DNA of 64,000 nt from Prosthecobacter fusiformis. GTDB lineage: Bacteria; Verrucomicrobiota; Verrucomicrobiia; Verrucomicrobiales; Verrucomicrobiaceae. Under the pieces are notes generated by a model. The model saw only the letters and a list, made by a program, of their open reading frames with translations. It had not been told where the DNA came from and did not search any database. Within the stretch, counting starts at the first letter, position 1, and every line of letters begins with the position of its first letter. The stretch lies in the NCBI RefSeq assembly GCF_004364345.1, contig NZ_SOCA01000013.1:1-64000 (forward strand), in the 5' to 3' direction. Below, piece by piece: positions 470 to 39,383 of this stretch. The position numbers and the translations under genes were made by a program.

Positions 470-3400
470 TCAACGACGACGGCGGAAGAAGAGGCCGAAC
501 AATCCGAAGAACAGGAGGAACATGCGGCTCGGCTCTGGGATGACGAAGACAATGCCGTGGGAGCTGAAGTAACTCGTATTCCAGCTCCGGCCGACGCCGA
601 GGTCAGGCAGATTCAGGAAACCGTGCGTTCCGGCCAGGGTACCGGCGGCACCACTGTCATCAATGGAAGCCCAGTCCACCAGGTGGAAGACGGCACCATA
701 GTCTGGCACGTAGCCATTCAGGAAATCGCCCGAGATGGTGAGGGTGGCGTTGATGGTCTGCACCCCAGTACCAGTGATGTTGATCTGGTCATGCTTGGTG
801 GTGGAGTCGTAGCTGTCAGTCCAGTCTGAGGGAATGACAAAAGTGCCAGGATTGGCCTGATAGGCGGCGACAGCATCCGTATCGATGACCGTTGCGCCAC
901 CGATCTGGAAGAACAGCTCGGAACCGGTGTTGGCCGTGAGCGTGCCCACCGTCAGCTGGCCGATGGTGCTGACGCCCAGGGCATCCATGGAGCCTGGAGT
1001 GATGCGCCCCGTGGTGGTGACACCGCCAGAGATCCGTCCCGTGCCGCCCAGGAAGGCCCCGGCAGACACGGTGACATTGCCTGAGCCGGTGGCGGAGGCG
1101 AAGCTGCTGGGGTTATTGGCCAGGAGACCTCCTGCACTGACTGCGGTATTGCCAGTGTAGAAATTGTCCGAAGTCAAAACCAGCAACCCAGAGCCGGTTT
1201 TTGACAGACTGCCTACAGCACTTCCATTGGTGATCTGGTTGTTGATCACCACTTTCGCACCCGTGCCGACTGCAAGCCCTAGGGTGCGTACCGTGGTGGA
1301 GGCATTGGCGATGGAGAGTATATCACCATCAAAGGTGGTCACCCCGGTGTTCGTCACGGTCAGCGTGCGGCTGCCGGTGGACTGATTGAAGTTACCGGTG
1401 AAGAGCAAGTCTGCCGATCCTGTAATGGTGGCGCTGCCAGTGAATTCAAGATTGCCCAAGACTGTATCGAAGCTGCCGATGTTCAAAATGCCTCCCGCAA
1501 GGGTGAGATCCGTGCCGGATGGCAGAGCATTGGCCACACCGTAGGTCAGGGTACCGGCGGTGATGGAGGCTGGCCCAGTGAAATCCCCTGCAGCATTGAG
1601 GGTCAAAGTACCGTTGCCCAGCTTGGACAGTCCGCCAGCCCCCCCACTGCCAAAAGCATTGGCAAAGGTGACGTTGTTACCATTGGTATCAAAAACACCA
1701 CCGCCAAGGCCCAGCATCATGTCACGGACTGTCGGGTCAAAGGTGGAGCCTGTGGCCCAGCGCAGACCGCCGCTGAAGAAGTTCAGCCCGCCGCTGCCCA
1801 GACGGTCCAGTGCAGAGACTTCAATGAAGCCTTGGTTGAACCAGGTGCCGCCGGTATAGGTGCTGGCATTGGAAAGTATCAGCAAGCCAGCACCCGACTT
1901 GGTCAGGGAAGCATTACTGGTGGTGAGGGAGGGCGTCACCGTCAGGCTGCTGGTGGCATTGGTGACATACATGATGTATTCATCCGTGGCAGTGCGCAGC
2001 TCGGAGAAGCCGTTCAAGGTCATGCCATTGGCAGCAGTGGTGGTGGCAGCCAGCAAGGCACCGCTGCTGAGGGTGAGCACATCCGCCGCTCCACCGGTGA
2101 CGGTGACTGCAGCCGTGCTGGAATCCAGCACCAGGGAATTGATGGTCTTGCTGCCGCCAGTCAGTGCAGCCAGCGTGCTGGCGGAGAACCGGACGTTGTT
2201 CTGCGTGGAAGCGGCGAGCGCGTTATAACCGGCTTCATTTTGAATGTATTCAGTGGTCAGCAGCGGACGCAGACTGGAACTGCCCGTATCATAGGTGACA
2301 AAACTGTTCCCCAGGGCCGTGGAGCTGCTGGCATCCCCAACCATGTAGGGGTAAATGCTGCGGTCCGTGCCACCTGCACCGGTGCCGCCGATGGCACCGG
2401 AGGGAAGTGTGCCGAAGGTGACGAGACCGCGCCTGCCGGATGCGGCACCAAGGCTTAAACCGCGCACGAGCACCGTGGCCTTGTTGTTGCGGACGAGGTC
2501 TGCGGCCGTGAGGCGTGCCGCAGTATTCGCGGCCGCATTATTCGCCTCCACCATGATGACGTTATGCCCGGCCCCGAGGACGAGGCTGCCGATGGTTTCG
2601 TTACGGATTTCTCCCTCATCATTGTCATTGCGAATACGCAGCCCGTTGCTACCAGCCGTATAGTTCAGGGTCACGCTGGCAGAATTGCCGATGCGGTCGG
2701 TGTCATTGTCACCCTCCTGGTCACTGAGCACGGTGCCCGCACCATTGATGGTGAAGCTGGCGGCATTGACCAGGATGCCAGATGTGGAATCCAGGTGCAG
2801 AAGCCCCTGGTTAACGATGACGTTACCCGTAAACAAAGTGCTGTTCCCTTCCATCTCCTGGGTGTTAGCTCCATTTTTAATGAAGGTGCCTGAGCCTTCC
2901 AGAGTGCCTGTAAAGACGGGCGTGGTACCTGAGTTGTTCAGCAGCGTCAGAGTACCCGTGCCGATGTTCACCCGGCCGCCGTCCGCACCGCCGCCAGCCA
3001 AACCGGCGATGGTTTCAGAACTGTTATTGAGATCCAGCAACGCCCCTGTCCGGTTGCGCAGGGTGACGATGGAGCGGTCACCAATGGCCTTGCCGCCAGA
3101 GATGCTGAGGACACCCTCATTGATCGTCGTCTGCCCCGTGTATAAATTGTCCCCATTCAGGATCATGGTGCCCGCACCGCTCTTGGTCAGAGCCAGGTTG
3201 CCATTTACAAGAGAGGCGAGGGTGAAGCCATTGCTGCTGTGCTGGTGCACGATCAGTTCTGTCAGGATGGTGGAGTCAGTCACCGGCAGGCCACTGCTGA
3301 TGACACCGCCGGAGATGCTGGCGCTGGCGGCACCTTCTGCAATGAGGATGCCCCCGCTGGTAAGGGTGAGATTGGCATCACTACCCAGGACCAGATTCGA

Positions 3401-9400: not shown

Positions 9401-12400
9401 TTCAAAGGTATTGTCCCCGGCCAGTTCCAAAGCGCCGTTGCCCGTTTTGGTAATGCCGCCGTTGCTGAGCACCCCGGAGATCACAGCTTTGTCCGCCGTG
9501 GAGGAGGTATTGTCCGCCACACTGAAGGTGCGCTCGGCACCGGCTAGATTGATGTCATTGGTGAAGGTCACCACATCGTTGGCCGTCACGGAGCCAAAGA
9601 TCAAAGGGGCCCCGCTCTGAACAAAAAATTGTTCACCCCAGGTCAGGGAAAGCGGTGTCGCCACCCCGCCCAGCGTCACGGTCAAGGGACCACCCGCAGC
9701 AGCAAACCCGCCGCCCGCCGTGGTCGTGGTCCACTGCACTTGATTATCCCCGGCTCCAAGGCTGCGGGTGAAGGTGCCGCTGCTCTGATACACACCACCA
9801 TTGAGCAATAGATTGTTATCCAGTGCGCCCAATCCCATGATCGCGCCCGCACTCACCGTGAAGGTGCCGTCAAAATCGTTGTTGGCGATGCCGCTGAGAT
9901 CCAGGGTGCCATTGCCCGTTTTTGTAAACACACCGCTGCCGATGAGGTTATCTATGCTCCAGATCATGTCCGCATCCAAAGCCGCATTGTCAGCGACACT
10001 GACGGTGATGCCACTGGTGCCCAGATCCAGCGTGCCATCTCCCGTGATGGTGGCGGCCAGGGTGGTGGTGCCGCTGTAGGTGATGGCGGTGGCCTTCAGG
10101 GTGCGGCCTGCACCCACATCAATCAGCGCCGAGGTGCCCGCTGAGTTACCCATGGTCAGGGTAGCCACGGACTGATCCGCGCCTTCAATGAACAGGCTGC
10201 CCGCAGTCACCGTCAGGTTGCCCGTGCTCAGCTTGCCTGCGCCCGTCAGCCGCAGGGTACCATTGTTGTTGTTCAGCGTCGTTGTGCCGGTATAAGTATT
10301 GGCAGCAGTCAAAGTCAGCGTGCCGCTACCGGAATAGGCGAGTGCACTCGCACCTGAGCTCAGGCCATTGGTAACGAGACCTGAAATGAGCACATCCCCT
10401 GTGCCGTTGAGGGTCAGCGTGCGGGCCGTCGTAGTCGTACTTTCAGAAAGGCGCACTTCCCCAGCCAGCACCACTCCCTCCCCGGTGGTATTCACCGTCA
10501 GCGTGCGGCTGGCTGCGCTGTTCAGCCACATGCCGTTGAAGGTGATCTTGTCATCCCCGGCGATGATGAAAGTGCCGCCATGGGTCACGTTATTGGCGAT
10601 GGTGCGGTCGGTGCCGTTGGAAAACAGAGTGCCTGTGGTCAGCAATGCAGTGCCCGTTCCAAAGGCGCTGTCCGTCCCCAGGATCACCTTGGCAGCGGCA
10701 TTGCTGATGGTGGTATTGCCTGAGTGCGTATTTACGCCGTTGAGCGTCAACGTGCCTGTGCCTGTATAGCTGAAGGCGCTGTTGCCGGTTCCGGTGCCGT
10801 TGGAAATAACGCCTGAAATGAGCACATCCCCCGTTCCGTTGAGCGTCAGCGTGCGCGCCGTCGTCCCCGTACTTTCAGAAAGACGCACCTCGCCAGCCAG
10901 CTCCACGCCGCCAGTGGTATTTACCGTGAGGGTGCGGTTGCCGCCACTGTTCAGCCACATGCCATTGAAGGTGAACTTATCCTCCCCGTCGATGGCGAAA
11001 GTGCCACCGTGGGTCACGTTATTGGCGATGGTGCGGTCGGTACCGTTGGAAAACAGAGTGCCTGTGGTCAGTATGGCATTTCCCGTCCCAAATGCGCTAT
11101 CCGTACCCAGGATCACCTTCGCCGCTGCATTGCTGATGGTCGTGGGGCCGGAGTGGCTGTTGTTACCATTCAGTTCCAACGTGCCAGTCCCAGAATAAGT
11201 GATGTTGGAGGCGCGGACCGTGGAGCTGGGATTGTCCGTGATGTTGGCATTGACGATAGTATAACCGGAACCGTTGAAGGTCATCGTGCGGGCGGACCCA
11301 CTGTCATTGTTGCGCATGACTGGAGCGTCAAGCGTCAGCTTTTCACCCTCAATCAGGTTGTTGGTAATGGTGGAACTGCCGCTGCTGCTGCCAAAAAGGA
11401 TGGACGTTGTCGCATCAATACTGATGGAATGCTCACCGATAAAGGATGCCACCGTATTCCCGGCCACGGTGAAGATGGCAGTGTTTGTCAGCATCCGGTC
11501 ACCGCCTTGGGCGAAAAGATAACTGTTGGAAACCGTCAGGTTTCCAGAGCCCATCGCATTGTCATGGCCGATCCCCAAAGCACCTGCGCTGACGCTGACC
11601 GTGCCGGTCATTCCGATGTTGTTCCCAGACAGGATCCAGGTCCCGCCGCCTGTCTTGGTGACGGCTAAAGGACCGTCGAAATTGGCCAGGTTGCTACTAA
11701 TCTCATTGGCATCCGTGTTCTGGCCCTGCAACGTCAGCGTCTTGGTGCGTGCGGCGATGTAGTTGCCCGAGTTCACCACATTACGGAGGATGAGTGCCCC
11801 CGTACCACTGGACTCGATGGTGGTCCCACCAGGACTGGTCGTGCTGGAGGCCGTGCCAGCCATGTTAATCAACCGGTCCGAAGTCTCTCCGCTGCCGACA
11901 TAAATGAGTGTGCCTGCGGTAGTGCCACTGCCAATGCTCAGCGCCCCAGTGCCTGCCCCCAGGCTGCTGGAGGCCATCCCACTACCACCGACAGAGGTGA
12001 CGACCAGGGCACCTGCGCTGATGGAGGTATTGCCCTCATAGGTATTCGCCCCCAGCAATTGCAGGCGCCCGTTGCCGGACTTGGTGATGCCGCTGGTCCC
12101 AGTGCCACTGATGTCGCCAGACAGGGTGGCGAAGTCAAAGGCGGTGCTGGTGTTGTCGCTGACGGAGATCGTTCGAACGGCACCATTGAGATTGATGTTA
12201 TTCACCATTTCAACATCGAAAAGAGCGGTGGTGGAGCTAAGGACCAAGCTGCCGGAGGTCATGAAACCGCCGCTGCCCCAGGTCAAGTCCGTCGGGCTGG
12301 CTGTGCCGCCAATGGCCACCAAGAGCCGGTCCGTGGAGGCAGCAAATCCGCCCCCTGCACTCCAATGCACACTCCCAGCGGTGGCTGAAGAAGCCAGCGC

Positions 12401-15400: not shown

Positions 15401-15958
15401 CCCATTGCCCACGGACGTATTGCCTGTGATGATTACGGCATCCGTAGAGGCTCCCAACTGGGCCTCGTCGCTGATGATCAGGGTGCCATTGCTGACGGTG
15501 GTCACTCCTGTATAGTTATTGCTGGCATTCGTCAGCCAAAGGGTCCCCCGTCCTGCTTTATTGAACCCTGCCGTCCCGGTGAGTAAACTGTCCACAGACA
15601 CCGTATCCAGGAAATTCACATCCATGAGCCCACTGCCCAGCTCCACACTGCCCCCCGAGAGCAGGTAGCTGTCATTGAAGGTGATCTGGTTGGCCAGGCT
15701 GCCGTTCGCCAGCACAATAATCTCCGGATTAAGCAGCGGAGCTGTATTTGGAATCGGTGAAACAAAGAACACATCATCCACCAAAGTGGGTGCCACCAGC
15801 GTGTCCCAATTGCTGCCATCAGCCCAGTTGTTGTTATCATCGCTTCCCGCCGTCCAGGTCGTCGGTGCCGCAAACGGATGCGTCAGGGCGAGGAGGTGAA
15901 AACACATCATGCTCGCGGTCACTGTGACTCGAAACAGGGGACGTTTAAGGTGGCTCAT
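470..15958 (-). CDS. Giant autotransporter-type beta-strand-repeat protein with PEP-CTERM tail (5162 aa)
   Basis: Predicted secreted, cell-envelope-sorted beta-solenoid protein of about half a megadalton. Residues 1-31 look like a signal peptide (positively charged start, hydrophobic core, cleavage near HPFA/APTTW). A head domain follows (TWTAG...NWADGSNWD...VDDVFF). The rest is a long array of units of the type LTKxGxGTLxLxGxNTYTGxTTxxxGxL, the signature of autotransporter-associated beta-strand (PATR) repeats. The C-terminus is IPEPSR, a short hydrophobic helix (MFLLFFGLFGLFF) and RRRR, a typical PEP-CTERM signal cut and attached by an exosortase. No autotransporter beta-barrel is present. 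Two head-to-tail super-repeats fill residues about 1875-4930. The ATG at 15958 has no Shine-Dalgarno sequence but fits the signal peptide. The gene is paralogous to its upstream neighbour (16726-34137), most clearly over the last 230 residues. Surface adhesion or matrix formation is an inference only. Confidence 0.9.
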   Translation of the reverse strand: MSHLKRPLFRVTVTASMMCFHLLALTHPFAAPTTWTAGSDDNNNWADGSNWDTLVAPTLVDDVFFVSPIPNTAPLLNPEIIVLANGSLANQITFNDSYLLSGGSVELGSGLMDVNFLDTVSVDSLLTGTAGFNKAGRGTLWLTNASNNYTGVTTVSNGTLIISDEAQLGASTDAVIITGNTSVGNGGGNLLLLSGWDSTLEFERDLNISGGGSNNFGSALTTVGNVHLTGDIQTSASGGQDTRIASNFGNLQISGTLTISQGTTRSLTTQGAGNIMVDGLVTGIGGITKTGIGGMTLTNVNNDFTGTVRVDTGSLRVSSSAVIGTSTAVASIGLNGGIFEIRSDAPDFQNKNIQLAGSSSTVFVDRAINGSGLNVEVDMGNFSFGGSNRNLTLGGRNGYTVHLTGLDGEMGGGGGNQTTLTNNARLATLDANLWKNSDSTARVLTLTGTGNTIVTGGILATGGAHVLTKGGTGTLTILGNSNYTGATNTSGGALLISGFGSLGANPGSSTAAVNIGSTTTTAGILTYLGQPGTGAGETTTRTINLNGTSAAVTLNADQAGTAPSALIFTSNFTATGLGNKILTLGGTNKLDNEIRGAIPNSTGFTTSLQKSGVGTWNLSGTNTYTGTTTITDGVLKVRANAASSTIIQDASAILFNVDTLTQAAGGTLEFVGRDAQNNIETLGALTPTAGAGTILLTPGAGGTASLVFSSYAGATNGAGYGLNIVGSDASNKVTLTGVATGLVSPNVYFDSSHFAYSDGGVLRAPVYGTDANFVTSATALTTGVNNEITGSFNADAVTISTLRINGAHTLTLNASQTLTINVGGANTAGGILATGGNSTITGGTGITTGGAGALVVRVDGEVDKLTIASILTSGTSGGLTKNGLGTLVLSAVNAQTGDTHINEGTLQLSGSSSRISGASAALNIRQGATLDLNGVNSGTAIGIFNGAGTVTNSAATTTAILTVGNGNGIGNFTGLIEDGAGKISVFKTGSGSQTWSGLNTYTGSTTIASTGVVSVAYLADIGEASGIGMGDADNNAQSLIFTGSTGGLSYTGLESISIDREFTLGGTGARIQSNGQNNATLIWNSTSALTFGTGITAAQLLTLGGASIGDNQFDLRIINNTNGGAATSVTKADAGLWILGNQSNSYSGSTTISGGALRAIDGGSLPTTSALVLGGGVLETHGTFDRALASSATAGSVHWSAGGGFAASTDRLLVAIGGTASPTDLTWGSGGFMTSGSLVLSSTTALFDVEMVNNINLNGAVRTISVSDNTSTAFDFATLSGDISGTGTSGITKSGNGRLQLLGANTYEGNTSISAGALVVTSVGGSGMASSSLGAGTGALSIGSGTTAGTLIYVGSGETSDRLINMAGTASSTTSPGGTTIESSGTGALILRNVVNSGNYIAARTKTLTLQGQNTDANEISSNLANFDGPLAVTKTGGGTWILSGNNIGMTGTVSVSAGALGIGHDNAMGSGNLTVSNSYLFAQGGDRMLTNTAIFTVAGNTVASFIGEHSISIDATTSILFGSSSGSSTITNNLIEGEKLTLDAPVMRNNDSGSARTMTFNGSGYTIVNANITDNPSSTVRASNITYSGTGTLELNGNNSHSGPTTISNAAAKVILGTDSAFGTGNAILTTGTLFSNGTDRTIANNVTHGGTFAIDGEDKFTFNGMWLNSGGNRTLTVNTTGGVELAGEVRLSESTGTTARTLTLNGTGDVLISGVISNGTGTGNSAFSYTGTGTLTLNGVNTHSGNTTISNAAAKVILGTDSAFGTGTALLTTGTLFSNGTDRTIANNVTHGGTFIIAGDDKITFNGMWLNSAASRTLTVNTTGEGVVLAGEVRLSESTTTTARTLTLNGTGDVLISGLVTNGLSSGASALAYSGSGTLTLTAANTYTGTTTLNNNNGTLRLTGAGKLSTGNLTVTAGSLFIEGADQSVATLTMGNSAGTSALIDVGAGRTLKATAITYSGTTTLAATITGDGTLDLGTSGITVSVADNAALDADMIWSIDNLIGSGVFTKTGNGTLDLSGIANNDFDGTFTVSAGAIMGLGALDNNLLLNGGVYQSSGTFTRSLGAGDNQVQWTTTTAGGGFAAAGGPLTVTLGGVATPLSLTWGEQFFVQSGAPLIFGSVTANDVVTFTNDINLAGAERTFSVADNTSSTADKAVISGVLSNGGITKTGNGALELAGDNTFEGAITVSAGTLQFSTVSDNGGGPSNLGQGTNGITLSGGRLQFIGGADQETDRGITFTTTGILDASGTGGATITYTGVFNPGVNSLNLEGTGYGIFAGEFVQTSNTGDLNKNGTGTWRMDSATTIVDNLVITSGELIFNVANAFTGDDLFIRDALLTLTVNGALTTDVDDFNISTETASGGILDIHGTTGSTVTEILIGRTAANNVSSPDLSGSIIDSVGGGSFGATTMSIRNGVVEVDIAISGTTNLGATISADNGGLNYGSGSITGSLSQGGSLVLNNGSISGDITFGSGSTLTKNSVNTVTLSGDNTVTGAGISTINNGILVLDYTDNTGAKISAAGLTMNGGTLQIDGHASTAVTTNAGNLTLGSSTDPAPAVVRINTAGAAATLQVGSITRNLGATLRFNPSTTLGSLVTTAENGAGDILGGWATYQLGNGSAVFATIIDDKITGFDSTVINDVAMWTAGADITESTGFTGTLASSLSINSLRFDAASGSTVTVGADETLNIASGGILITSNVSGTAGISGGFISSGTNELIITHDGTADFNLTSRMNGTLALTKAGSGTLVLDSATNTSNGTLRLSGGTVRLQGGNALGDRAAVIMEATTGVVLDVVDSETIGALSGGSSTNYKNMQVNIANGETLTINQIAGGTFYGNINATSGSATLTRIGASTLVITDGFLNLGPQGVVNVSGGRLTIDINGNNNQLTQVPSGTTVNVSDGGSFFIEHHGITVNTGTPGRVANDVPFFLNSGGSTTDSLFYRHDQADDHIEQIGVVTFGSGVSSVRVDATSSDAAALSVLRASSIVRQNQATMVLRGLGTQNTTGRRGQFQSAAAFTGYGTGTTTSLPVIPWAIGSSAGGTVAADSFLTTTGGANATWRPLNLSTEYLNVTNAVTWDAVTNTQNVLVSASTTAAAGNKALRALLISTGTGIVDLTGDGTGPLTVESGGFLFSGTGSSTLSGFTGINVSPTAGEYVFHVMGSSASIDSALTTTGANLTKSGPGTLILTASNLGLDSVAINEGVLQISDLDNIGGNGGDLLFANGTLLLDAAYSGDDLSARSIAFLSGVATLDTNGHDLALANSIGNGGAGSFTKTGNGILTLNAAASYGGTTTITGGTLRYGVDNALPTSSNVVLNLSTLDMGSFDATLGGLTLTANATLYAEGDVIFDGMLTTSTSAASRTLTVNGGGNVTINGNALITDSTSGRTLNIAVNDSGSVVLNGSFLNGTPSTSSLAKFGNGSLELTQRNFYTGNTSLGNSTNLGGTLKLSGAATLGAGTLTVSNGTLLLEGTVSRHAVTTLTTGGGPAGGSTLIRIGDGVTLAPTAITFSSTGSNLTTIIDGDGTLDLGTSGITVNIGNSSAAEVDMSWEMDTVIGSGLFTKAGTGTLDIRGVTNYNFNGTYQINAGAILGLDTTGNLILNGGVFEGSGDFTRSLGTGNNQVQWAAGTAGGGFAAQGDTLYVNIGGTNTDGVPDLPPSTLVWGSTQYFVSDGAPLIFGSLTANDVVNFQNNIDLNGGTRTVTVTDNTTATTDKAVISGVISNGSLTKTGNGILELSGANTFSNVRVTTGILQFSTVTDVSGAASNLGQGTITLSGGNLQFIGAASQSTNRPISFTGTSSMSSFGTNDAVITYSGAINGTAAFALNLTGNATSSGVISGGITQTGTSADVDVNSGTWTLSGALSTLADDLRVTNTGSVLNLGTTGSLSFTSGSSNYIYARNGGQVNFLTDDVTSTAQGIDGLLIGYETAGVAGILNMNTFNITVPRVDLGQTGAGLEGLITGNGGTITVNTSLNLYRGTIEGINLTGTANTVKNGAGEVILKSNNTGLSGTTTLTNGLLRLDYTDSNTQKIGSGLLTFNGGTLIMDGHETLSFTETVNGVTLGSTAGAASIQINNVGSQQLTFDMGAVTRLVLGTTMSFEASSANAIFVTTSENPDGFTSLGGWASYSRRAFASVDVNGNIVAATTVLKDDVSTWLAGDNVSDASGYTGIVETGSINSLVFNSANASNLVLGSDANLTLTSGGILIAEGAASASISGGVISSGLPVTDSTILTELIVHQHSSNGFTLASLVNGNLALTKSGAGTMILNGDNLYTGQTTINEGVLSISGGKAIGDRSIVTLRNRTGALLDLNNSSETIAGLAGGGADGGRVNIGTGTLTLLNNSGTTPVFTGTLEGSGTFIKNGANTQEMEGNSTLFTGNVIVNQGLLHLDSTSGILVNAASFTINGAGTVLSDQEGDNDTDRIGNSASVTLNYTAGSNGLRIRNDNDEGEIRNETIGSLVLGAGHNVIMVEANNAAANTAARLTAADLVRNNKATVLVRGLSLGAASGRRGLVTFGTLPSGAIGGTGAGGTDRSIYPYMVGDASSSTALGNSFVTYDTGSSSLRPLLTTEYIQNEAGYNALAASTQNNVRFSASTLAALTGGSKTINSLVLDSSTAAVTVTGGAADVLTLSSGALLAATTTAANGMTLNGFSELRTATDEYIMYVTNATSSLTVTPSLTTSNASLTKSGAGLLILSNASTYTGGTWFNQGFIEVSALDRLGSGGLNFFSGGLRWATGSTFDPTVRDMMLGLGGGVFDTNGNNVTFANAFGSGGAGGLSKLGNGTLTLNAAGDFTGPASITAGTLTYGVANALPSGTDLTLAGGILNIGSFDTVLGNLEFTGSATITGSADLLFTGNFNQSTGSRTLTVTNTGVTTFDGDILSIANASTTVRTLGLAVGTGAKVVINNQITNGSAVGSLSKTGSGLLVLTSDNFYTGNTAVSAGGLLANNPSSFASATGSGNVTVSAGAFLGGTGRISGGVTTTGRITPGSMDALGVSTIGQLTVGTLTANTGSELFFQIGGATVIDTDAVAAYQANPGTFVIPSDWTDSYDSTTKHDQINITGTGVQTINATLTISGDFLNGYVPDYGAVFHLVDWASIDDSGAAGTLAGTHGFLNLPDLGVGRSWNTSYFSSHGIVFVIPEPSRMFLLFFGLFGLFFRRRR
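1160..5700 (-). repeat. Super-repeat unit 2 of the first giant gene (about 4.5 kb)
   Basis: This is the second of two head-to-tail units in the 470-15958 gene; it starts at the codons for NFYTGNTSL and ends at NFYTGNTAV. Landmarks recur in the same order as in the preceding unit: LDLGTSGITV, a SLGTGNNQVQW...GGGFAA segment, NLGQG, LDYTD, a W..G.......G(F/Y)TG segment, the RGL...RG...EY module, and GSFDxxLGxL. Landmark offsets between the units are 4.5-4.6 kb. Boundaries are approximate and the copies are clearly diverged at the DNA level. Confidence 0.75.
5690..10330 (-). repeat. Super-repeat unit 1 of the first giant gene (about 4.6 kb)
   Basis: This is the first of the two tandem units, running from the codons for NTYTGTTTL to those before NFYTGNTSL. 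It has the same landmark order as unit 2 (LDLGTSGITV near 10015, LDYTD near 8430, WTAGADIT near 8020, STEYLN near 6755, GSFDATLGGL near 5970). Its central part (about 8440-9050) is more diverged than the flanks and lacks the GYETAG segment seen in the other copies. Boundaries are read by eye. Confidence 0.75.
10330..11190 (-). repeat. Two tandem 429-bp (143-codon) units
   Basis: Two neighbouring copies of a 143-residue block encode near-identical protein: TISNAAAKVILGTDSAFGTG, TGTLFSNGTDRTIANNVTHG, FNGMWLNS, EVRLSEST and TLTLNGTGDVLISG recur in both. The identical stretch around gtgcggtcggt sits at 10602 and again at 11031, giving a period of 429 bases, a multiple of three. The copies are much closer to each other than the surrounding repeats are, so this is a recent in-frame duplication. 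Confidence 0.85.
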
Positions 15959-16663
15959 GGGTGGGGGTTGGGGGTCGGGGAAGACACCGAATCCTCCAAT
16001 TCGTAGGTGAATCGGAATTTTCGTGAATTTCCCCGGCTTTTAACGAGATCCTGGAGCGAGGTTCGAGATTAAATTTCGTTCCAAAAAAAGAGCGGTTTCA
16101 GCATGCTAAACCTTATTCTTATGCAGATACAAAGTATTGACACCTCCCCGCGACGCCTGCCCCAAAGGCTCTGTGCCGAATGCCCAGCCCCTGCTTTCCG
16201 AGACCTAAAGAACCGACCTTTTGCCAATTCCTGCCCAGGTGATTCTAGCCCCGCAAGGCAATACACAATCACTTGAACCCCATGCCTAAAGCTCCCCTTC
16301 CCGCATCGTCTTGAAGATTCCACAGACCTCCAGGCATGTTACAGGATCTTTCAAAAAATCTGCTTCCCTCACCTCAAAACAAAGAAACACCTTATTTATG
16401 ATATGCCTCAACTTTATCCATTTCAGGCCGGAAAGCAGCCTCAAGCCACCATCATTTACCTAAAATAAGCATGCGCAAAACCATCATTTAAAGATTTATT
16501 CCCCCATTTCCAAAGGCATGCTTTGCAGGGCAAAAAGAAACGGCCACCCCAAGAAAGCCATCACCCTAGACCCAGAAAAGGGAATCTACAGTCCCCCTTT
16601 TCCCCTGCCCCATAGCAGCTCAAGCCCCGGACCTATCGCCCGTCATCCCGGTGCCATACCCCG
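15959..16663. other. Intergenic region between the two giant genes
   Basis: About 700 bases, visibly more AT-rich than the flanking genes. It carries the promoter side of the 470-15958 gene and the terminator of the 16726-34137 gene. Short frames here (16069-16323 minus, 16518-16760 plus) have no recognisable protein character. I see no RNA gene, no clear -35/-10 pair and no Shine-Dalgarno sequence before the ATG at 15958. Confidence 0.6.
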
Positions 16664-16700
16664 CCTAAAAAAAGGGGGAGCCGTGAAGCTCCCCCTTTTG
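16664..16700 (-). terminator. Intrinsic terminator of the second giant gene
   Basis: A perfect 12-bp stem (16670-16681 with 16688-16699) has a 6-base loop, and the minus strand continues into a run of T residues. It lies 26 bases past the stop of the 5803-codon gene, so the two giant genes are probably separate transcription units. Confidence 0.9.
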
Positions 16701-16725
16701 AATGCAGAACCAGCGCCGGATACGA

Positions 16726-19700
16726 TTAACGACGGCGGCGGCGGAAGAACAGACCCATGAGACCGAAGAACAGCAGCATCATGCGGCTTGGCTCAGGCGT
16801 CACAAAGAGAATACCGTGCGTGGCGAAGTAGTTGGTGTTCCAGCTCAGCCCGGCAGCCAGTGCAGGGAGATTGAAAAACTCAGTTCCCACCAGGTTGTCG
16901 GAAGGATTGCTCTCATTCAGAGAAGCCCAGTCCACCAGGTGGAAGACTTCACCATCCTGCGGGCTGTAGCCGCCCGTGAAGCTGACCGTAACCGTCCCAC
17001 GCACCGTCTCCACACTGGTATTTTCGATGACCAACTGGTCATGCGTACCAGCAGCCCAGGCCGTTTCAGTCCATGTCGTAGGAACCGCGAAGCCACCAGG
17101 ATTCGACTGGTAAGCCTTGGTGGAGGAGAGGTCCAACACCGTATTGCCACCGATCTGGAAGAACAGAGTGGAATCCGTATTCGCCGTGAGCGTACCCACC
17201 GTCAACCGACCGATTTCGCTGACGCCCGCAGTCATCGTGCCGGGGGAAAGGATACCGCTATCAGCCACAGTCACCGCACCGCTGATGCGGCCCGTGCCAC
17301 CCAGGGTGGAAAGGGAGGTCACAAAGACATCCCCCGTGCCCGTGCCGGAGCCAGTGATGTTATTCACCAGCATCGTGCCCGCCATGATCCGGGTTTCCCC
17401 AGCGTAGGTATTGGCGACCATCTGGATGAAGGTGCCCGCGCCCGTCTTCCGGACACTGCCCGTGCCAGAGATGACATTGGAGGAAGTCCAAGTCGTCGCC
17501 GCCGTGGTATCGATTTCCAGCTTGGAATTGTTCTCGATGCTGCTGGCGAAGGCCGTCGTATCCGTCAGGCGCAGCGTACCACCCGTGACCGTCGTCTGGC
17601 CAGTATAAGTAATACGGCTGCCCACCAGCGTCTGCGTTCCCGTGCCCTGCTTCTCGAACTCGAGACGCGTGGTATTGCTGCCGCCTGAACCCTTGTTGCG
17701 CATGTAGCCTCTGTAGCTGTAATCCTGGCTGCTATTGACGATGAGCTTGCCATTGGTAAGGACACCGGTCTCGGCGCTTTCCAAGTTTTCGATCACCCCT
17801 TCATTGGTCGTGCCAATGATACCTGCTAGCGTTTCCGTGAAGCCCATGAGCTTGAAGTAGGAGTTCTCACCGCTGGCACCGCGCATGGTAAGCGTGGCGG
17901 TGTTCACGATCTGCTCACTCTTGCCTAGTGCCATCACCACATCAAAATCGTTGGGGTTATTGGTCACATCACCGATCTCCAGATTGCCGTTGATAACGGC
18001 ATTGGTATCACCATTTAGAACAACAGAATTTGTGCCACCACCGTTGACGCCTCCGTGGTTGAACAAATAGGTGCCCGTGAATGTGCTGCTGCCCTGGATG
18101 GTCAGCAGGCCAGTCGAAGAGGAAGACCGAGTCTCAAAGATCAGCACGTCATTGGAGCCAGCAGTGAAATCATCGACCCCGTTGGCCAGCGTCGTGCCCG
18201 TGGTCACCTGGGAGACATCAACCACACCGCCACCCGTGCCGATGTTCCAGGTCTTGGAAGAAAGGTCACCTGTAAAGCCTCCAGTAACACGGATACCACC
18301 GCCATGGAAGTAGAGCGTCCCTGTTCCGAGCTTGTTGAGGTTATCCACCGACACCAGGCCCTGGTTCAGGTAAACATCGGTGAACGCATTGGATGCACTC
18401 CCCAGAGTGAGGATTCCGGCGCCAGACTTCACCAGAGGCACTACAGAGAGCAGCGGCGAATTGATGGTGAGGTTGTGCGCAGCAGCACCCGTGACATAAA
18501 TATTGTAGTCACGTCCGCCGCCAGTGGTAATACCACCGGTGGCGAATGCCGACAGTGTGTGGCCAGCGGGCGTTGTCCCAGTGGTCGTGGACAAGATGGC
18601 TCCCGAGGTAATCTCGATGCTGTTTGTCGGACCCGTGATAGCAGCGGCACTATTGCTGCTGCCAGCATCAATGACCAGGGAATTGATGGCTGAGGCCGTG
18701 CCGGTCAAAGCAACAGTAGCCGTCAAACGGACGTTGTTCGTCGAAGGTGTGGCTGCTGTGAGAGCATCAAATTCGGTGGCCGTGTTATACTCCGTGGAAA
18801 GCAGAGGGCGAAGGTTTTTAGTGGCCGCATCATAGGTCACAAAAGAATTGCCCCATGTAGTGCTGTTGGCCATAGTACCAATAATCCACGGCACGATGGC
18901 GATGTTGACCTGACCAGCAGTGCCTGTCCCGCCAACAGTAGCGATGGCAGCATCGGAACGAATCAGACCTTTGCGGATCGTCGTGGTGTTACCAAGGTTC
19001 AAACCACGCACCAGCAAGGTGCTGCGATTGCTGCCCTGGCTGATGCTGGCTGCCACTAATTCCGCCGAAATGGCAGAATTGTCAGTTGTCGGAGTGGCGG
19101 TGATGACGTTGGCACCATAGCCCAGGGTGATAGCACCCACGCTTTCCGAACGGGGTCCATAGCTAGAAGAGGTAGTGTGACTGTTGTCCACGATAAGCCC
19201 ACTCGTGCCGCCGGTGTTATTCATCGTGATGGTACTCGTATTGCGAATACGGTCCACGTTGCTCGCCTGATCCTGGGCGCTATGCAACTCACCACCATTG
19301 AGGATATAGGCTGTGACATCATTAATCGATCCGGCAGAGCCGCTCATCGTGATGCGGCCTCCGTTGATGGTGAGCGTCCCTGAGAGGGAATTGTCACCAT
19401 TGATGGTCAGTGTGGCCGTACCATTTTTCACAAGATTACTGCCAGTGCCGCTCATGACGCCCGCGAAGGTTCCTGCTGCGGTTTGATTTAGAGTCAACGT
19501 GGCAGCAGCTGCGATGACAACCGTGCTGGAGGTGCCACCACTCAGGGAACCAATGGTTTCCGAATTGGTCAGTTCAAGGCGTGCACCAGAAATGTTACGG
19601 ATATTGACCGCAGAGGTATCGCTAATGGCATTGCCGCCACTGACGCGGAGGATGCCTTCGTCAATGTTGATGGTGCCTGTGACATTGGTACCGGAGAGAA

Positions 19701-31700: not shown

Positions 31701-34137
31701 TAGGATTGCTTGTTCCGCCCACGATCTTCAGGGTGTTGATGGAGGCCGTTCCAGAGGTTGATCCATTGACGGTCTGCACGTAGTTCACTCCCGAATTTGT
31801 TGTCCCTGAGAAAGCAGTGGTGGGGAGAGCCGTATAAGCTGTGTAGGCGCTGACCTTGCCAGCCGTCTGGGTTGCCCAATCAACGCCGTTGAATGTGTGA
31901 AATGCTACCGTGGAAGAGGCTGGCGCAATGATGCCATTGGTAACCGTTGGAGCCGAAGTAAAAACGATGGACTCGTTAGCCCCCACATAGTTTACTGTGG
32001 CACCAGCCGTGCGGGTGCCTAGTGATGCGAATGTCAGCGTGGCCTTATCACCGACGCCTGCGCTAGGCGTTGTTTTGACAGTGCCAGCACCTGCGGTCAG
32101 GGTCAAAGCCCCCACCGACTCAGCACTGTTGCTGTTCGCACCCACGTATTCAAAAGTGCCACCCGCTTCCTGAGTCACAGACTGAGCATTAAAGATGACG
32201 CTTGCTCCATCATTAATAACATTCCGTGAAACGCTCGAATCTTTAATTTTCAAAAGACCATTGGTCAGCGTCACATTGGTAGTGAATTCATTTGCGCCTG
32301 AGAGAACCCAAGTACCTGGGCCATTTTTGTTCACCCCTCCGGTTCCGGCTTGTGGAATCGCCGAGGTGATGATGTTATCGGCCATGTTCGTTCCACCGAG
32401 CGTGATTCCGCCCGAGCTCGTAACAGCAGCCCTTGTAATAGTACCATTAAGCACCACTGGATCCGCCCCGCCTTGATTCGCATATATTGCACTGGAAGCC
32501 GAGGTAGTATTAAAAATCAGAGCCTTGCTTGTAATCAGGCCAGCTGCCGTTGTGTTTTCCGTTGCGCCGATAATAAGATTTCCCGCTGTGGAACTGGCGT
32601 TACCAAGCGAAATACTGCTGGTGTTATTATTTAAAGAGTTAAAATCAGTAATGGCCAGTATGCCCGCAGTGACACTTACATTTCCGCTAAACGTAGATTG
32701 CGTGCCTGTAAGCGTCAGAATCCCTGCACCGCTTTTGGTAAAGTTATGGTCAGCACCCGTTGCCATGATGCTTCCATCAATAAGTGTATTGCCAGTGCTG
32801 GTGATGGTCATCGTGCGCGCTGTGGTACTAGTGGTGTTCCAAAACGGACCCGTGAAGGTCAACAGCCCCCCCATATTGGTGGTAATTGCTGCATCCCCCG
32901 CAGTGGTTCCAACGGTCGCACCACCAGTAAAAGTAGCTCCATAGCCATTACGTGAATTAAAAGTCGTCGTTTCCCCGGCATCGAAGGTCAGAGTACCAAA
33001 TGACGCCGTTCCATTAATGGCACTTTCAATGTCAGTGCTTCCAATCGCATGATCCACAAATACAGTGGAACTGGCGGCTGCACGCTGATAGATATTATGG
33101 GAACTGACAAAATTGTCTGATCGCACTTCCAGAACCACACTGTCCGTGCTGAGGTCAACAACAGATGAGGAACCTGTGCCAACATTGCTTCCCAAATCAG
33201 CGCCTGAACTGACACGTACAGAGCCGCCCACAATCTTTATCACTCCAGTGTAGCCAGTGGCATCGACAGGATTCAGAGTCAGTGTGCCCACACCCGCTTT
33301 ACTAATGCCCCCGGTTCCCGTAAGCGTCCCATTAATGGCGTAGTTGCCAATACCGACACTGTTTGTTAACCCGAGGGTAAGCAGAGTCGTGCCAGTCACA
33401 TTGACGTCAGTCATGCTCAATGTACCGCCTGAGGAACTGACAAAAGTATTGATCAAACCTGTCCCATTGGACAGAAGTCCGCTGATTGTATTATTACCCA
33501 CACTGATAAGAGCAGCCCCGGAGGCAGGAACAGAACCCGCGCCTTGCAGAGCCAGATTACGGGTCAAATTCACACCAGAATTATGAGTACCCGCCAACAC
33601 GAGTGCCCCGCTGGCTAAGCCACGTGTCAAAGATCCATTCACCGTAACTGTTGAAGTATCGTTGCCCAGCGCATCATTGTGATCAATGACCAGCAGACCG
33701 TTATTGATTGTCGTACTGCCTGTATAAGTATTCACGCCACCCAGATACAAGGCACCGCCGCCAGTTTTCACGAGTCCGTCCGTGCCATTTAGCACGCTGT
33801 CAATCGTCGCCACCTTGCCCATGTCCACACGGATGCCGCCTGTCCCCACAGCCAGCGCTCCTCCGGTCAGTGTATAGGCATCCTTGAAGCTGAGACTGTT
33901 GGCTAGGCTGCCTACATTCAGAGTGATTTCCTGCGGTGTGCCGACGTTGAAGGTCACATTATCAGTGGCAGTGGGCGCTGCTGCCGGGGTCCAGTTACCC
34001 GCTTCATCCCACTGGAGATTCGTGGCTCCTGTCCAGGTCACGTCGAGAGCCATAAGCGGCTGGCCGATCTGCCAGAGGCACATCAGTACCGTCAGGAAGA
34101 TGTTTATAATGAGGCGATGGCGGCGCAGGGTGGTCAT
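16726..34137 (-). CDS. Giant autotransporter-type beta-strand-repeat protein with PEP-CTERM tail (5803 aa)
   Basis: Paralogue of the neighbouring 5162-residue protein and probably similarly secreted and sorted. Residues 1-31 form a signal peptide (MTTLRRHRLI then a hydrophobic core, cleavage near PLMA/LDVTW). The head domain is VTWTG...WDEAGNW...TDNVTF. Thousands of residues of PATR-like repeats (GTLxLxGxNTYTGxTT) follow. The end is VTPEPSR, hydrophobic MMLLFFGLMGLFF and RRRRR, an exosortase-type tail, and there is no outer-membrane barrel. One full super-repeat lies at about 29010-24500 and a shortened one at about 21300-18160. Between them (about 22500-22130) a tail-like segment is followed by a second head-like segment. 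A block containing GQSISGINIPAGAYI, unlike its surroundings, lies near 30010-30200. The start ATG has no Shine-Dalgarno sequence. Role is unknown; an adhesin or sheath protein is plausible. Confidence 0.9.
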   Translation of the reverse strand: MTTLRRHRLIINIFLTVLMCLWQIGQPLMALDVTWTGATNLQWDEAGNWTPAAAPTATDNVTFNVGTPQEITLNVGSLANSLSFKDAYTLTGGALAVGTGGIRVDMGKVATIDSVLNGTDGLVKTGGGALYLGGVNTYTGSTTINNGLLVIDHNDALGNDTSTVTVNGSLTRGLASGALVLAGTHNSGVNLTRNLALQGAGSVPASGAALISVGNNTISGLLSNGTGLINTFVSSSGGTLSMTDVNVTGTTLLTLGLTNSVGIGNYAINGTLTGTGGISKAGVGTLTLNPVDATGYTGVIKIVGGSVRVSSGADLGSNVGTGSSSVVDLSTDSVVLEVRSDNFVSSHNIYQRAAASSTVFVDHAIGSTDIESAINGTASFGTLTFDAGETTTFNSRNGYGATFTGGATVGTTAGDAAITTNMGGLLTFTGPFWNTTSTTARTMTITSTGNTLIDGSIMATGADHNFTKSGAGILTLTGTQSTFSGNVSVTAGILAITDFNSLNNNTSSISLGNASSTAGNLIIGATENTTAAGLITSKALIFNTTSASSAIYANQGGADPVVLNGTITRAAVTSSGGITLGGTNMADNIITSAIPQAGTGGVNKNGPGTWVLSGANEFTTNVTLTNGLLKIKDSSVSRNVINDGASVIFNAQSVTQEAGGTFEYVGANSNSAESVGALTLTAGAGTVKTTPSAGVGDKATLTFASLGTRTAGATVNYVGANESIVFTSAPTVTNGIIAPASSTVAFHTFNGVDWATQTAGKVSAYTAYTALPTTAFSGTTNSGVNYVQTVNGSTSGTASINTLKIVGGTSNPTLTLGGTLTLTAKGLLFDYTLGGATITGSQIGAASVETVIITNGVRQFDNSTNPPTPLPIPALTINSLIGSGTGSLTKSGTGTLVIGGANTYTGNTIINEGMVQLSGATATLGVISTAANLTTLRQGTILDINAAGASQTVTIGALTGAGTITNSGGVSGTSAATLSIGSTSSTAAGTFTGILKDGTGVLNVIKRGTGAQSLLGLSTYTGTTTIGSTGLVTVNSMTDLGQTSGIGAGSGSAANDAQNAANLIFNGSTGGLVYAGAILNGALTAGTVSTSTNRLFTLAGTGATLSSTVTNNNAIIWRNTGNIVHGITGPQTLTFGGTSTGDNTFYPRLTDSGTGANITSVIKTGTGVWNLAGSTNAYTGTTTISQGILVATSGQGLPTASNLVFDGGALYSQGTLSRNIGTGAGQMRFTPSSSTTAQFSGGFIGGDSKLTVSWTGTPVWGSTTGFLDNRNGLILNGSQARAQGATTAMALSEVDIAGNFSLGSATGGAAQASLAMTTTNSSANVTVDTTGLVVGQSISGINIPAGAYIVSINSATQVTISANTASSGGATGTGAVGALAMRTIRVDDNTNTAADYATISGIISGNAGTGLRKVGSGTLQLMGKNTYSGETNLYQGTLTVNSLGRSTDAVSGSSLGTNVNANLASNALTMGNGGTGAGILQYVGAGETSDRMIRLNTSTGNTQIHADGSGALVLTNIVNDMVAGAKILYLRGSNTMGNMITSPLTNYNSGADALALTIDGNATWILAGNSTYTGQTTITSGAVGIGHVNAFGASTINLRNGSMFAYGEDRTLANTWFINSTTTSGTTTFFGDYSIIANGAWTYNNQSATQTFANSISTGKSLTLNGAMPFNSLTSAVSLAFNGSGTTNLNSAISTDKAFGVNLSYTGNGTLNIGGINSTGGSTTVNNANGILRVKGAGKLGTGNLTITAGNVYFESNASVNHSVGTVSMGASALLDIASTLTLTPTAITATGTTLTAATISGAGTLALGSGNVTVTVADNTGLASDMVWTINTLTGSGSLVKAGAGTLDISGITNNNFSGTYQITAGDIIGLNATSNLVLNGGVFSGNGTFTRSIGTGSGQVQWLSGGGGFAAVGGNLSVTLSSAADPLVWGTGGTANFVPDGAPLIFGSALTSTGVVTFNNNINLNAGTRVVSVVDNPSVTTDKAVIAGNLTNGTLNKTGNGILELSGTNTLTGITLSTGTLQFKTVSNTSAGSNLGNSSTAITVSGGVLSFIADGAGNSQTLNRVVNVTATAGLGASGTNDATMTYAGGINANAVSVTLSGTGQGFVTGGFTHTSAAPDLVVASGNWTFSGTSMVVGDELKVNGVGTVANLNATGVLGYFAGTSNNIFVGNGGTVNVGDNNAFGTSYGIEGVYVGYETAGADATLNMNGFSVTVPRIDIGQPGANLVGHITGTGTINVTTTTAASSIQLYAGSVSAKLAGAGTIVKTGMGTVTLSGDNSGLNGTVTTQVNAGTLILDYTNSNTLKISAGSALSMSGGNLTFTGSAAGATTHTFPSLALAGGANMISVTNGFTRSATVNVGTISRSARTGTIRFEAPDSGFIKSGSANGSTGLIGTGTAFATVTKGGVTSFAQIDGDSNIVAVAMLSGGNDVSNWTTGAHITDETTGFTGTVTGNSVINSLRFNAAGGSGLLVADTGILNIASGGILQTSNVAGPTSITSGRLISGTSELVFITDSLTHSLQVGSSISGTQSITKSGAGTLHLNGANFFSAATNLQNGTLRVSGGNAIGDLSLVTLADDHTTLLELQGNETIGGLAGGSATAGYNALATVSIGTHALTLNQTTSTPTYLGLLTGSGTLIKTGTGIQELEGASTGFTGRVIVNGGTLHLDSTVGALINATSFTVNGPGSSLYSDQDQDSDVNRIGNSAPITLNNTAGGNGLYVRNSNDLGATRNETVGVVTLGGGHNVITAEPQNSTAGTTARLTSTSLTRNNKSTLLVRGTELGATSGIRGQVLFSTAPAGSVGGTGATATTLSIVPYIIGDGTAGSVGLGNSFVTNTAVGLRVLANSEYVTDAAGYAALGGLTTSNVRFVTDPGVSTTLAGKVINSLVMDSTAGSLTLTGVTGNNLTLSSGALLSAGANATRINGFANLLTSTSEYIIYSTNAANVLTLESRLSSTGAALVKSGAGTLALTHLTNTYGGGTWFNQGTIEVSALGSLGTGSLNFYGGALRWATGTSFDASTRTTIFGVGGATFDTNGNDVILTQAIGGGGEGGFTKAGLGKLTLNVAANYLGDTTISAGTLAYGVSAALPTATNLTLGAATLDIGSYTTTLKGLTLNGANPVITGTGSLTFEGDVVNAGGSRTLTVNNTGGVTFDGDYLLLSDAATTATLTLNGSGNVTVNGVVTDGGAAASGLTYSGTGTLTLNSTNTYSSFTTIENGTVAFGADQNLLGGLRMGSANTVTTPGVLDLTAANATFGGAFTMLTNSTTASEVKIGATKTLTINNNVALGSSAAGSDTAVNFTGGGKMVVTNTAAASSFIVGSSATNATLVDMSGLSSLNISLNTTNGVLRVNPTTNSAVSGKTGTLILPTAGDGTTTVTVATLAVGDSATNNSSTNIPNEQVNKVVLGSGVNTFNVNTINIGTGGRDSGSIAFNSVSTDGSIIIRNAAGTGAAVFNMGTGSASTAVGSYNTFDVSGHNADLKFGAVTIGTQNARTGTQINLFSFDEGTLDMSSLTLSSKGATGTVTSNFNIGGGTVLSGLISMAATTTATSVAIANLNITGGNVTLSGNIVRVGGSGTSTANFLLTGNNTVLDMGNNTLGGSGTAKLTSIVIEGGTLKNVAEFNGGDNLVKTTTGTLTFDGTNTYTGNTELQEGTVIAAGGANNRLAATGLTMGSGTASATLQLGTSAGASSQTLTSLSSSGTGTGNAIYGGNAANSTLTVNQSVNTTFNGSLGGSGTNQNNLNLVKSGSGELVINGARSYTGSTTVSGGKLFIDGVQPLSNTMTSLTLADNTEFSMRGTSSFANVIYDFSGTGNVITVGNGATLGFALDGGFNTQLNLATGQSMQVTGTLTTAIYVNNAPTAGLEYVLINGADDDSIFGSGSFSINPVVFNGGSFTYALTQKFTGLGEPGEQWVLTPTAQAAAADVWWKGDLTGIATGVWSASLTSGDGFPTNWATTQAGGTDALVPPDSGSIVHFSATGAANFATTLGANLTIRELIFHSGGTNISIGSSGGTNTLTLGNATQASGLTLLTGAPDVSISANVSLAKSQTWNLTDMDSILTISGNLGGTGLLTINGNGTSSGTLILSGPNGRATLSGGIHLVAGKIILAGGDDDHMSSTTALALGDGTTAATLQLGDSSGASNNTIGNLSSSTTAGNAIIGGNAAVSTLTVVQATTDTFQGVIGGAGTNQNNVAFTKQGDGTLILNGVNTYTGLTTVNAGTLQMGAAGSISTEVLVNASAGKTAILDINGRALTLNGITFSGADATSTSQVIDSANTGTITLGGNVLYDGINNPLGATLSAAVNLGAAARTFTANASTSATTGLTVSGAISTTVGAVGANGVGITLDGTGSGLISGGITLVAGTTDGGTADLTKNGSGSWTINSVVTVVDDHLINAGTLTIETGGRLTWAAAGSTSQDLLVDTTAAPTLDLKTADAIVGSTGTNRIFIRDGSTILINAENAIGASIEQLILGDNSNGIGNLVMNFNNSMTNGTLTVGFDNTTEAGFITGSGTLSGLATLNLNTGTISAALSSAAGNVIKDHTTTMNVSGNNTLGTGSTTVREGILNLDFTTNNLADSKIGNGVLTMGILSSGETSAILRLTGNATGPSTQTVTDLVSAGGPSEIQLISNGGQDTVLHITGALSRTNGTVNFNLPSAQTQIKYTGSATNVNGMLAAWMNVNTNDFAKLSGTQIVAATYTTENSANAWGVNGNITSSAAMTGTTDTIRHTINSLRFNAAAVSTVTVADTLTIASGGVLLTSTVAGNATTITGGNLQAGADGFFFHQNSTGLLTVASNLIGGSNLTKNGTGTMLLSGTNVTGTINIDEGILRVSGGNAISDTSAVNIRNISGARLELTNSETIGSLSGGTSSTVVIAAAATLTLNQTAAGTFAGVMSGTGSNLVKNGTATLTINGDNSLSGTLTINGGRITMSGSAGSINDVTAYILNGGELHSAQDQASNVDRIRNTSTITMNNTGGTSGLIVDNSHTTSSSYGPRSESVGAITLGYGANVITATPTTDNSAISAELVAASISQGSNRSTLLVRGLNLGNTTTIRKGLIRSDAAIATVGGTGTAGQVNIAIVPWIIGTMANSTTWGNSFVTYDAATKNLRPLLSTEYNTATEFDALTAATPSTNNVRLTATVALTGTASAINSLVIDAGSSNSAAAITGPTNSIEITSGAILSTTTGTTPAGHTLSAFATGGITTGGGRDYNIYVTGAAAHNLTINSPLLSVVPLVKSGAGILTLGSASNAFTDVYLNQGLVSVDNLNKLGTGTLYFHGGGIRVTGGFTGDLSSKTWNIGTGGGVVDVSQVTTGTTLANGVDDFTAGSNDVLIFETRSSSSTGLLTIQGSSTFTGTYLFNHGGVNGGGTNSVVLNGDTNAVINGNLEIGDVTNNPNDFDVVMALGKSEQIVNTATLTMRGASGENSYFKLMGFTETLAGIIGTTNEGVIENLESAETGVLTNGKLIVNSSQDYSYRGYMRNKGSGGSNTTRLEFEKQGTGTQTLVGSRITYTGQTTVTGGTLRLTDTTAFASSIENNSKLEIDTTAATTWTSSNVISGTGSVRKTGAGTFIQMVANTYAGETRIMAGTMLVNNITGSGTGTGDVFVTSLSTLGGTGRISGAVTVADSGILSPGTMTAGVSEIGRLTVGTLTANTDSTLFFQIGGNTVLDLSSTKAYQSNPGGFAVPTTWTETAWAAGTHDQLVIENTSVETVRGTVTVSFTGGYSPQDGEVFHLVDWASLNESNPSDNLVGTEFFNLPALAAGLSWNTNYFATHGILFVTPEPSRMMLLFFGLMGLFFRRRRR
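18160..21300 (-). repeat. Diverged, shortened super-repeat in the second giant gene
   Basis: The order of landmarks found in the other super-repeats recurs in a weaker form: GSGLISGGI, an IFIRDG segment, LDFTTN near 20430, INSLRFNAA, ISGARLELTNSETIGSLSGG, DRIRNTSTITMNNT, the STLLVRGL...STEYN module near 18785-19045, and a tail ending near LGTGTLYFHGG. The beginning and end are less like the full units. Boundaries are approximate. Confidence 0.6.
22130..22500 (-). other. Internal tail-like segment followed by a second head-like segment
   Basis: Inside the 5803-residue protein the repeat pattern stops. A segment YVLINGADDD...FTYALTQKF...GEQWVLTPTAQAA resembles the non-repetitive end of PATR proteins just before a sorting tail. 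It is followed by DVWWKGDLTG, GVWS, NW and IVHFSATGAANF, which resemble the W-G...NW...V-F head found at the N-termini of both giant proteins. PATR repeats then resume. No PEP tail or signal peptide is left at the junction. Confidence 0.55.
24500..29010 (-). repeat. Full super-repeat in the second giant gene (about 4.5 kb)
   Basis: This matches the two units of the first giant gene in order and spacing. Landmarks are GAGKLGTGNLTITAG near 28950, DMVWTINTLTGSGSLVKAG, the SIGTGSGQVQW...GGGFAA segment, SNLGNS, YVGYETAG, LDYTNSN near 27240, NWTTGAHIT near 26840, the STLLVRG...NSEYV module near 25590-25840, WFNQGTIEVSALG and DIGSYTTTLKGL near 24800. It shows that the super-repeat predates the split of the two giant genes. 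Confidence 0.75.
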
Positions 34138-37796: not shown

Positions 37797-38240
37797 GCAG
37801 GATGTGAGGCTTTCCTGGCCTCAGCATGGGGGCGGGACGCCCCACTCCTTGTTTTCAGCTTCGCCCTCACCCCTTGCGCATGCTCGCAACGCGCAACCCA
37901 AGGAGTTGGGGCGTCCCGCCCCGACTGGGGTGCACCCCGCTTGCTGTATGGATCTATTCCTTTCCGCTGATCAAGGCAGGATGTGAGGCCTTCCTGGCCT
38001 CAGCATGGGGGCGGGACGCCCCCACTCCTTGTTTTCAGCTTCGCCCTCCGCACCCTAAGAGGTTGCAACGCGCAACCCAAGGAGTTGGGGCGTCCCGCCC
38101 CGACTGGGGTGCACCCCGCTTGCTGCATGGATCTATTCCTTTCCGCTGATCAAGGCAGGATGTGAGGCCTTCCTGGCCTCAGCATGGGGGCGGGACGCCC
38201 CACTCCTTGGTTTCAGCTTCGCCCTCCGCACCCTAAGAGG
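37797..38240. repeat. 179-bp tandem repeat array (2.5 copies)
   Basis: The sequence gatgtgagg...ctggcctcagcatgggggcgggac begins at 37801, 37980 and 38159, an exact 179-base period; the third copy stops at 38240. Each full copy holds a long imperfect inverted repeat: an arm gggcgggacgccccactcctt and, about 50 bases on, its near-complement aaggagttggggcgtcccgc. It lies between the convergent mscL and lipoprotein genes. It is not CRISPR: the whole unit repeats, with no variable spacers. Confidence 0.92.
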
Positions 38241-38302
38241 TCGCATCTGGTGAGGGAGTTTTGGCCAGCTAAAGCTTCAGGAGTACTTTTGCGGTCGCTC
38301 AC
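38241..38302 (+). repeat. Dispersed 60-bp intergenic element, copy A
   Basis: This shares the core ttttggc(c/g)agctaaagct and ggagtacttt with copies at 39541-39600 (same orientation) and 47143-47200 (inverted). It abuts the tandem array, and its last bases contain the complement of the stop codon of the lipoprotein gene at 38299. Confidence 0.8.
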
Positions 38303-39174: not shown

Positions 39175-39383
39175 GGGGGGAATACAGCTAGTTAGCGGTT
39201 TGGCAGCCCGCTTTCTAGCAATAAACATCACCTCATGCACACTTGTTCTTATCGATCCGGCGTGAGGCAAGACTTTCCCCATCCCTGGATCTCAGCATTC
39301 TTTATAGCCCATCACGGATAGAATTCCGAATCTAAAAGGCTGGGAGCAGACAACAAGACTCGTATCTGGGAGTGCGCCTTGTC

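Follow-up and report, generated by a model that had tools for sequence, protein, structure and literature searches.

Two neighbouring giant PATR solenoid proteins of Prosthecobacter fusiformis with PEP-CTERM tails and a putative autotransporter-type end module

A 64,000-nucleotide stretch of the Prosthecobacter fusiformis genome (contig NZ_SOCA01000013.1, positions 1 to 64,000; hereafter the window) carries two adjacent minus-strand genes for PATR solenoid proteins that end in a PEP-CTERM tail: gene 1 (P0001, 470..15958, 5162 amino acids (aa)) and, upstream of it, gene 2 (P0002, 16726..34137, 5803 aa). Both products are probably long beta-helical fibres of the autotransporter passenger type, which Sec would export and an exosortase would cut, and which would end up on the surface or within exopolysaccharide (EPS), for adhesion or as matrix. 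The repeats, the tag, the exosortases, the end-to-end homology of the pair and the existence of two alternative anchors in the genus were established computationally. The broader proposal, which we hold to be as plausible as its negation, is that giant passengers with their end module have been exchanged between a type V barrel and an exosortase tag within the genus, and would thus be exportable without a barrel in cis, as fibres of 5,000 to 14,000 residues.

Profile searches found 23 TIGR02601 stretches over the cut-off in each protein (14+9 in the gene 1 product and 12+11 in the gene 2 product), with PF12951 in agreement, bearing out the PATR-type repeats noticed in a sequence-only reading of this DNA. 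The exosortase-type tail claimed in the same reading was also recovered: the NCBIfam model TIGR02595 (PEP_CTERM) scored 20.9 bits in gene 1 and 24.7 bits in gene 2 (cut-off 16), while the Pfam PEP-CTERM model PF07589 scored 17.1 and 19.3, under its own cut-off of 20.7. The tag comprises PEPSR, a hydrophobic helix and an arginine run, RRRR in gene 1 (473..541, minus strand, 28.5 bits) and RRRRR in gene 2 (16729..16800, minus strand, 29.0 bits). Pfam and NCBIfam scans gave no match to the autotransporter barrel (TIGR01414/PF03797) in either protein, as the reading had said; the barrel model works in this genome, where it finds one other gene. In the Pfam scan nothing except PATR rose above the cut-offs, and an enzyme cargo was ruled out on the ground that neither protein has another Pfam domain over the cut-off.

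The signal-peptide-like N-termini (gene 1, 15854..15958; gene 2, 34045..34137; both minus strand, with approximate extents) were judged by eye: each has a basic start, a hydrophobic core and an A-x-A-like end. A lipoprotein was ruled out, as the lipobox is absent. Each protein has its sole cysteine at residue 19 or 20, within the signal-peptide-like stretch but outside any lipobox; the mature proteins would therefore be free of cysteine. The W-G...NW head attributed to both was read directly in both sequences. Both proteins are acidic, and Gly, Thr, Ser, Asn and Ala are abundant.

The conserved terminal module, together with the tag, spans 473..1159 in gene 1 (minus strand), with the motifs LGGTGxISG, LTVGTLTA, HDQI, LVDWAS and WNTSYF..HGI, and, by sequence comparison, 16729..17406 in gene 2 (minus strand). 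The part preceding the PEP-CTERM tag is, by sequence comparison, related to the ends of autotransporter passengers. A profile of the last ~330 residues, built from three sequences and searched against the PDB, matched the passenger of the Ssp autotransporter (8e7f, E 4.6e-8), with the PATR repeat and the following LGGTG...SGS..PG segment aligned, and the EprS autotransporter model NF051851 (448-606) matched P0001 at 4914-5087. A hidden Markov model (HMM) built from 40 terminal modules was searched against the barrel-anchored proteins of relatives; its matches, at 28.1, 25.0, 23.1 and 17.9 bits, fall on the segment directly before the barrel. In a further four of these proteins it scored 9.7-11.4 bits, with near-zero bias, over the motif HD.L..G....tL....P..G..F. 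Locally shuffled sequences and internal slices of both window proteins, used as controls, gave no match. The distance from the end of the match to the C-terminus is 389-396 residues in five barrel-anchored proteins, which are 2786-5528 aa long.

Barrel-anchored PATR giants of 2673-5979 aa occur in the same genus (L163-L170, in G023, G002, G030, G001, G012, G028, G021 and G032). Their bodies show homology to that of gene 1 and to those of other PEP-tagged giants (the best at 31% over 970 aa, with a composition-adjusted E of 4e-41), and the homologous end module was demonstrated in those of G001, G012, G021, G023 and G028. Since both bodies and end modules are shared, barrel and PEP tag alternate on homologous passengers within one genus. 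The sequence-only reading had remarked that PATR repeats are usually discussed with type V secretion; the repeats are indeed present, and the type V link is closer than was implied, given an end module apparently related to passenger ends and barrel-anchored sister giants. Another family of the order (f2) also has open frames of 4,098-5,369 codons with a barrel anchor (L118-L120, in G051, G054 and G042); barrels are present in that family, and no PEP tail module was detected in it.

An autotransporter-like body and end module, together with the one PATR autotransporter of this genome that has a true TIGR01414 barrel (853 aa; L071, G000:C3:643413-645974), speak for a barrel acting in trans, in which a two-partner-type barrel or the genome's own autotransporter barrel would surface the proteins and the PEP tail would only delay or anchor them. 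However, autotransporter barrels normally bear their own passenger, none of the genes beside the pair was recognised as an outer-membrane gene, and the genome has no match to TpsB (PF03865), a result that proves little as the same search matched in no control genome. We regard this route as quite improbable.

A 431-residue slice of the solenoid was modelled as all-beta (predicted local distance difference test score (pLDDT) 67, predicted template modelling score (pTM) 0.60). In VIA-align the slice was closest to pertactin (Z 12.8, 343 residues, root-mean-square deviation (rmsd) 6.1), and the list also has EspP (Z 10.7, 178 residues, rmsd 2.8), IgA1 protease, antigen 43 and other beta-helices. 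A PDB sequence search with the slice found nothing. The model supports, and does not prove, a beta-helix for the repeat region.

Several results weigh against the reading of the pair as exosortase-sorted, passenger-type fibres. No Foldseek match to the solenoid slice fell below E 0.001, and a Z near 13 may reflect merely a shared arrangement for repeats. The best matches of the tail HMM are composition-biased (scores 18-28, bias 8-18), although its nearly bias-free portion (HDqL..G..L..tL) matches as well, at 9.7-11.4 bits. The AlphaFold model of the terminal module, from three sequences, is poor (pLDDT 46.5), and as it failed, the homology of the cap is a matter of sequence. Neither exosortase of the genome matches a named subtype model over its cut-off, so either may be the acting enzyme. 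Finally, no outer-membrane route was identified for the pair.

The genome search for exosortases suggested by the sequence-only reading found two loci, and its case does not fail for lack of the enzyme. They score 114.3 and 123.3 on TIGR02602 (cut-off 105.55) and also pass the PF09721 cut-off. Both have the CSG.RS motif, another conserved Arg and FH, and in each a C-terminal stretch matches EpsI weakly. One of them is clustered with glycosyltransferase and FkbM methyltransferase genes, and a PEP-CTERM gene follows two frames downstream. Among 56 relatives, an exosortase is present in all 38 genomes that have the tail module, and the tail is absent from all five that have no exosortase; because most of these genomes belong to one genus, the co-occurrence is consistent with exosortase sorting rather than independent evidence for it. 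Sorting of the pair at the inner membrane is well inferred. The earlier statement that sorting must rely on Sec and exosortase thus stands for the inner membrane, and leaves out the outer-membrane step.

In the proposed mechanism, the PEP-CTERM sorting tag would stand where an autotransporter has its outer-membrane barrel. Sec would move the protein across the inner membrane, and the tail helix and Arg cluster would retain it there until it is cut at PEP by one or other of the two exosortases, which would probably also pass it on to another molecule. Sec export, tail retention, exosortase cleavage and probable transfer are the steps expected from what is established about the pathway (PMC1569441, PMC12188702, PMC11980579). 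For this pair we infer the cleavage, transfer, surface location and function. The mature fibre, estimated at ~110-135 nm if fully solenoidal (~0.48 nm per 20-22 residues), would then cross the outer membrane, a step described for exosortase substrates as an 'undefined pathway' (PMC12188702), and would act as an adhesive or matrix fibre tied to EPS. The PEP-CTERM protein PepA of Aquincola helps EPS binding to cells (PMC9850573), and an exosortase of Nostoc affects PEP-CTERM proteins of the exoproteome and is needed for motility and biofilm (PMC12188702); on these findings, an adhesive or matrix function is the best guess. The earlier suggestion that the huge size points to a structural surface role would fit such a fibre.

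Genome candidates for the outer-membrane passage are Wza-type exporters and several GspD-like secretins (best 307 bits, GspD cut-off 351). The secretins bear on a sub-model for this step that was proposed for MYXO-CTERM proteins (PMC11980579), in which C-terminal processing is followed by movement of the folded protein to the outer face by the type II secretion system. However, no secretin reaches the GspD cut-off and those present may serve pili, a folded 100-nm rod would be an unlikely cargo, and the Wza-type exporters are present too; this sub-model is rather unlikely. The proteins might instead be retained in the periplasm or at the inner membrane, without ever arriving at the surface. A fibre of >100 nm would fit across the periplasm only if bent or laid flat, and the related bodies that bear barrels are of the surface type, which makes retention improbable.

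The continuity of the frames, claimed in the sequence-only reading, is borne out: each gene is a single open reading frame (ORF) with zero stops across 5162 and 5803 codons and with start and tail intact. An artefact or a decaying pseudogene would find its precedent in genome G019, where a frameshift or an assembly error has divided the corresponding giant between two overlapping frames (L114/L115, G019:C4:414812-431496). Such a reading was rejected, and we give it next to no credence, as it is contradicted by the unbroken frames of the pair and by an equally unbroken orthologue in genome G018, to which gene 1 is 54% identical over 3,707 aa.

The earlier claim that the pair arose by gene duplication was upheld. 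The last ~230 aa of the two proteins are 55-59% identical, and in a windowed comparison collinear matches cover most of the length of each, reaching 201 bits between the two proteins and 246 bits within gene 1, with at most 33 bits in locally shuffled controls. Gene 1 also contains an internal duplication of ~1,540 aa (about 1,800-3,460 versus 3,350-4,970) and a younger internal tandem duplication (10169..11386, minus strand; protein ~1525-1930) with a DNA period of 429 base pairs (bp), whose 143-aa units are up to 72% alike.

The duplication is old, with a matching tandem pair of 5080 and 5384 aa in the same order and orientation in G018. The orthologue of gene 1 is the downstream member of that pair; orthology between gene 2 and the upstream gene is weaker (44.5% over 1,667 aa, with the register shifted). 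In a tree of the duplicated segment, each gene 1 copy pairs with its G018 counterpart (support 90/96 and 99/97), so the internal duplication predates the split from G018. The duplication that gave the pair is very likely older than this split as well. The tail tree did not resolve whether the tails of the pair were homogenised within each genome. In several other genomes, too, giants with this head are neighbours on a single contig, for example in G064 (C2), G031 (C76), G012 (C13) and G016 (C1), and tandem giants therefore recur.

The pair is ordinary for its genus and at the modest end of the size range, a habit of the lineage and not a one-off. Of 35 same-genus genomes, 34 have the tail module, and by hand count ~44 of the 150 tail-module matches listed are in open frames of at least 5,000 codons. 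The largest frame read has 14,376 codons (L148-L150, G001:C83:235500-285000); it is one frame with a similar head, the same PEP-CTERM tail and one cysteine. A frame of 14,657 codons in G002 is among those listed. When contigs were scanned with the gene 1 tail, a Prosthecobacter metagenome-assembled genome supplied the single relative found.

The organism's own genome has 25 PEP-CTERM matches, among them 12 further PATR proteins of 660-2817 aa whose tails are of the same kind; one more protein has the tail and no listed PATR match. It also encodes two PATR giants that have no PEP tag, of 6163 aa (L072/L073, G000:C6:253338-271829) and 5680 aa (L074/L075, G000:C3:441385-458427), both ending in Ig-like domains and a GVGYxLxPxLP-type C-terminus. 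Genes with this type of ending adjoin PEP-tagged giants in G019 and G034.

The pair thus represents further members of the known PEP-CTERM/exosortase and PATR kinds. As far as the accounts of PEP-CTERM/exosortase (EpsH) substrates of Verrucomicrobium spinosum and Akkermansia cover them (PMC1569441, PMC4960237), these share the N-terminal signal (putative in the pair), PEP motif, helix and Arg cluster, as well as a genomic exosortase, EPS genes and many paralogues per genome, with 65 PEP-CTERM paralogues given for V. spinosum (Haft 2006, PMC1569441; Ottman 2016, PMC4960237). Unlike those substrates as described there, the pair consists of PATR solenoids of >5,000 residues with a putative autotransporter-like end module before the tag. 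With PATR-containing type Va autotransporters, such as Ssp of Serratia (8e7f, PMC9977779) and IcsA, it shares PATR repeats in a predicted beta-helical passenger and the end module; it differs in having PEP-CTERM instead of a translocator barrel and 23 PATR repeats in each protein, compared to the one PATR motif described for Ssp (PMC9977779). The same-genus PATR giants discussed above have homologous bodies and end in an autotransporter barrel, not in PEP-CTERM. MYXO-CTERM/myxosortase and GlyGly-CTERM/rhombosortase follow a similar tripartite logic of the C-terminal tag (PMC11980579, PMC3237569), but their proteases are unrelated and the MYXO-CTERM cysteine is absent from the pair. In the open-access literature, no paper was found with both 'PEP-CTERM' and 'autotransporter-associated beta strand', a search limited to that wording.

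In the gap between the two genes (15959..16725, 767 bp), the coding strand has a single weak sigma-70-like site (16426-16398), which is no more than a consensus match. Elsewhere in the window, positions 37797-38245 hold a non-coding 179-bp direct repeat in 2.5 copies, ~94% alike, with palindromic stretches of the GGGGCGGGACGCCCC type, adjoined by a 327-aa ORF that has no Pfam family (38299-39282). A 462-aa protein of the NosD/right-handed beta-helix family (55003-56391) belongs to a different family from the PATR giants.

Homologous giants that end in either a barrel or PEP-CTERM offer a natural comparison, in which the task of the barrel would be done by something else in the tagged set. PATR repeats and a passenger end module alone do not mark type V secretion.
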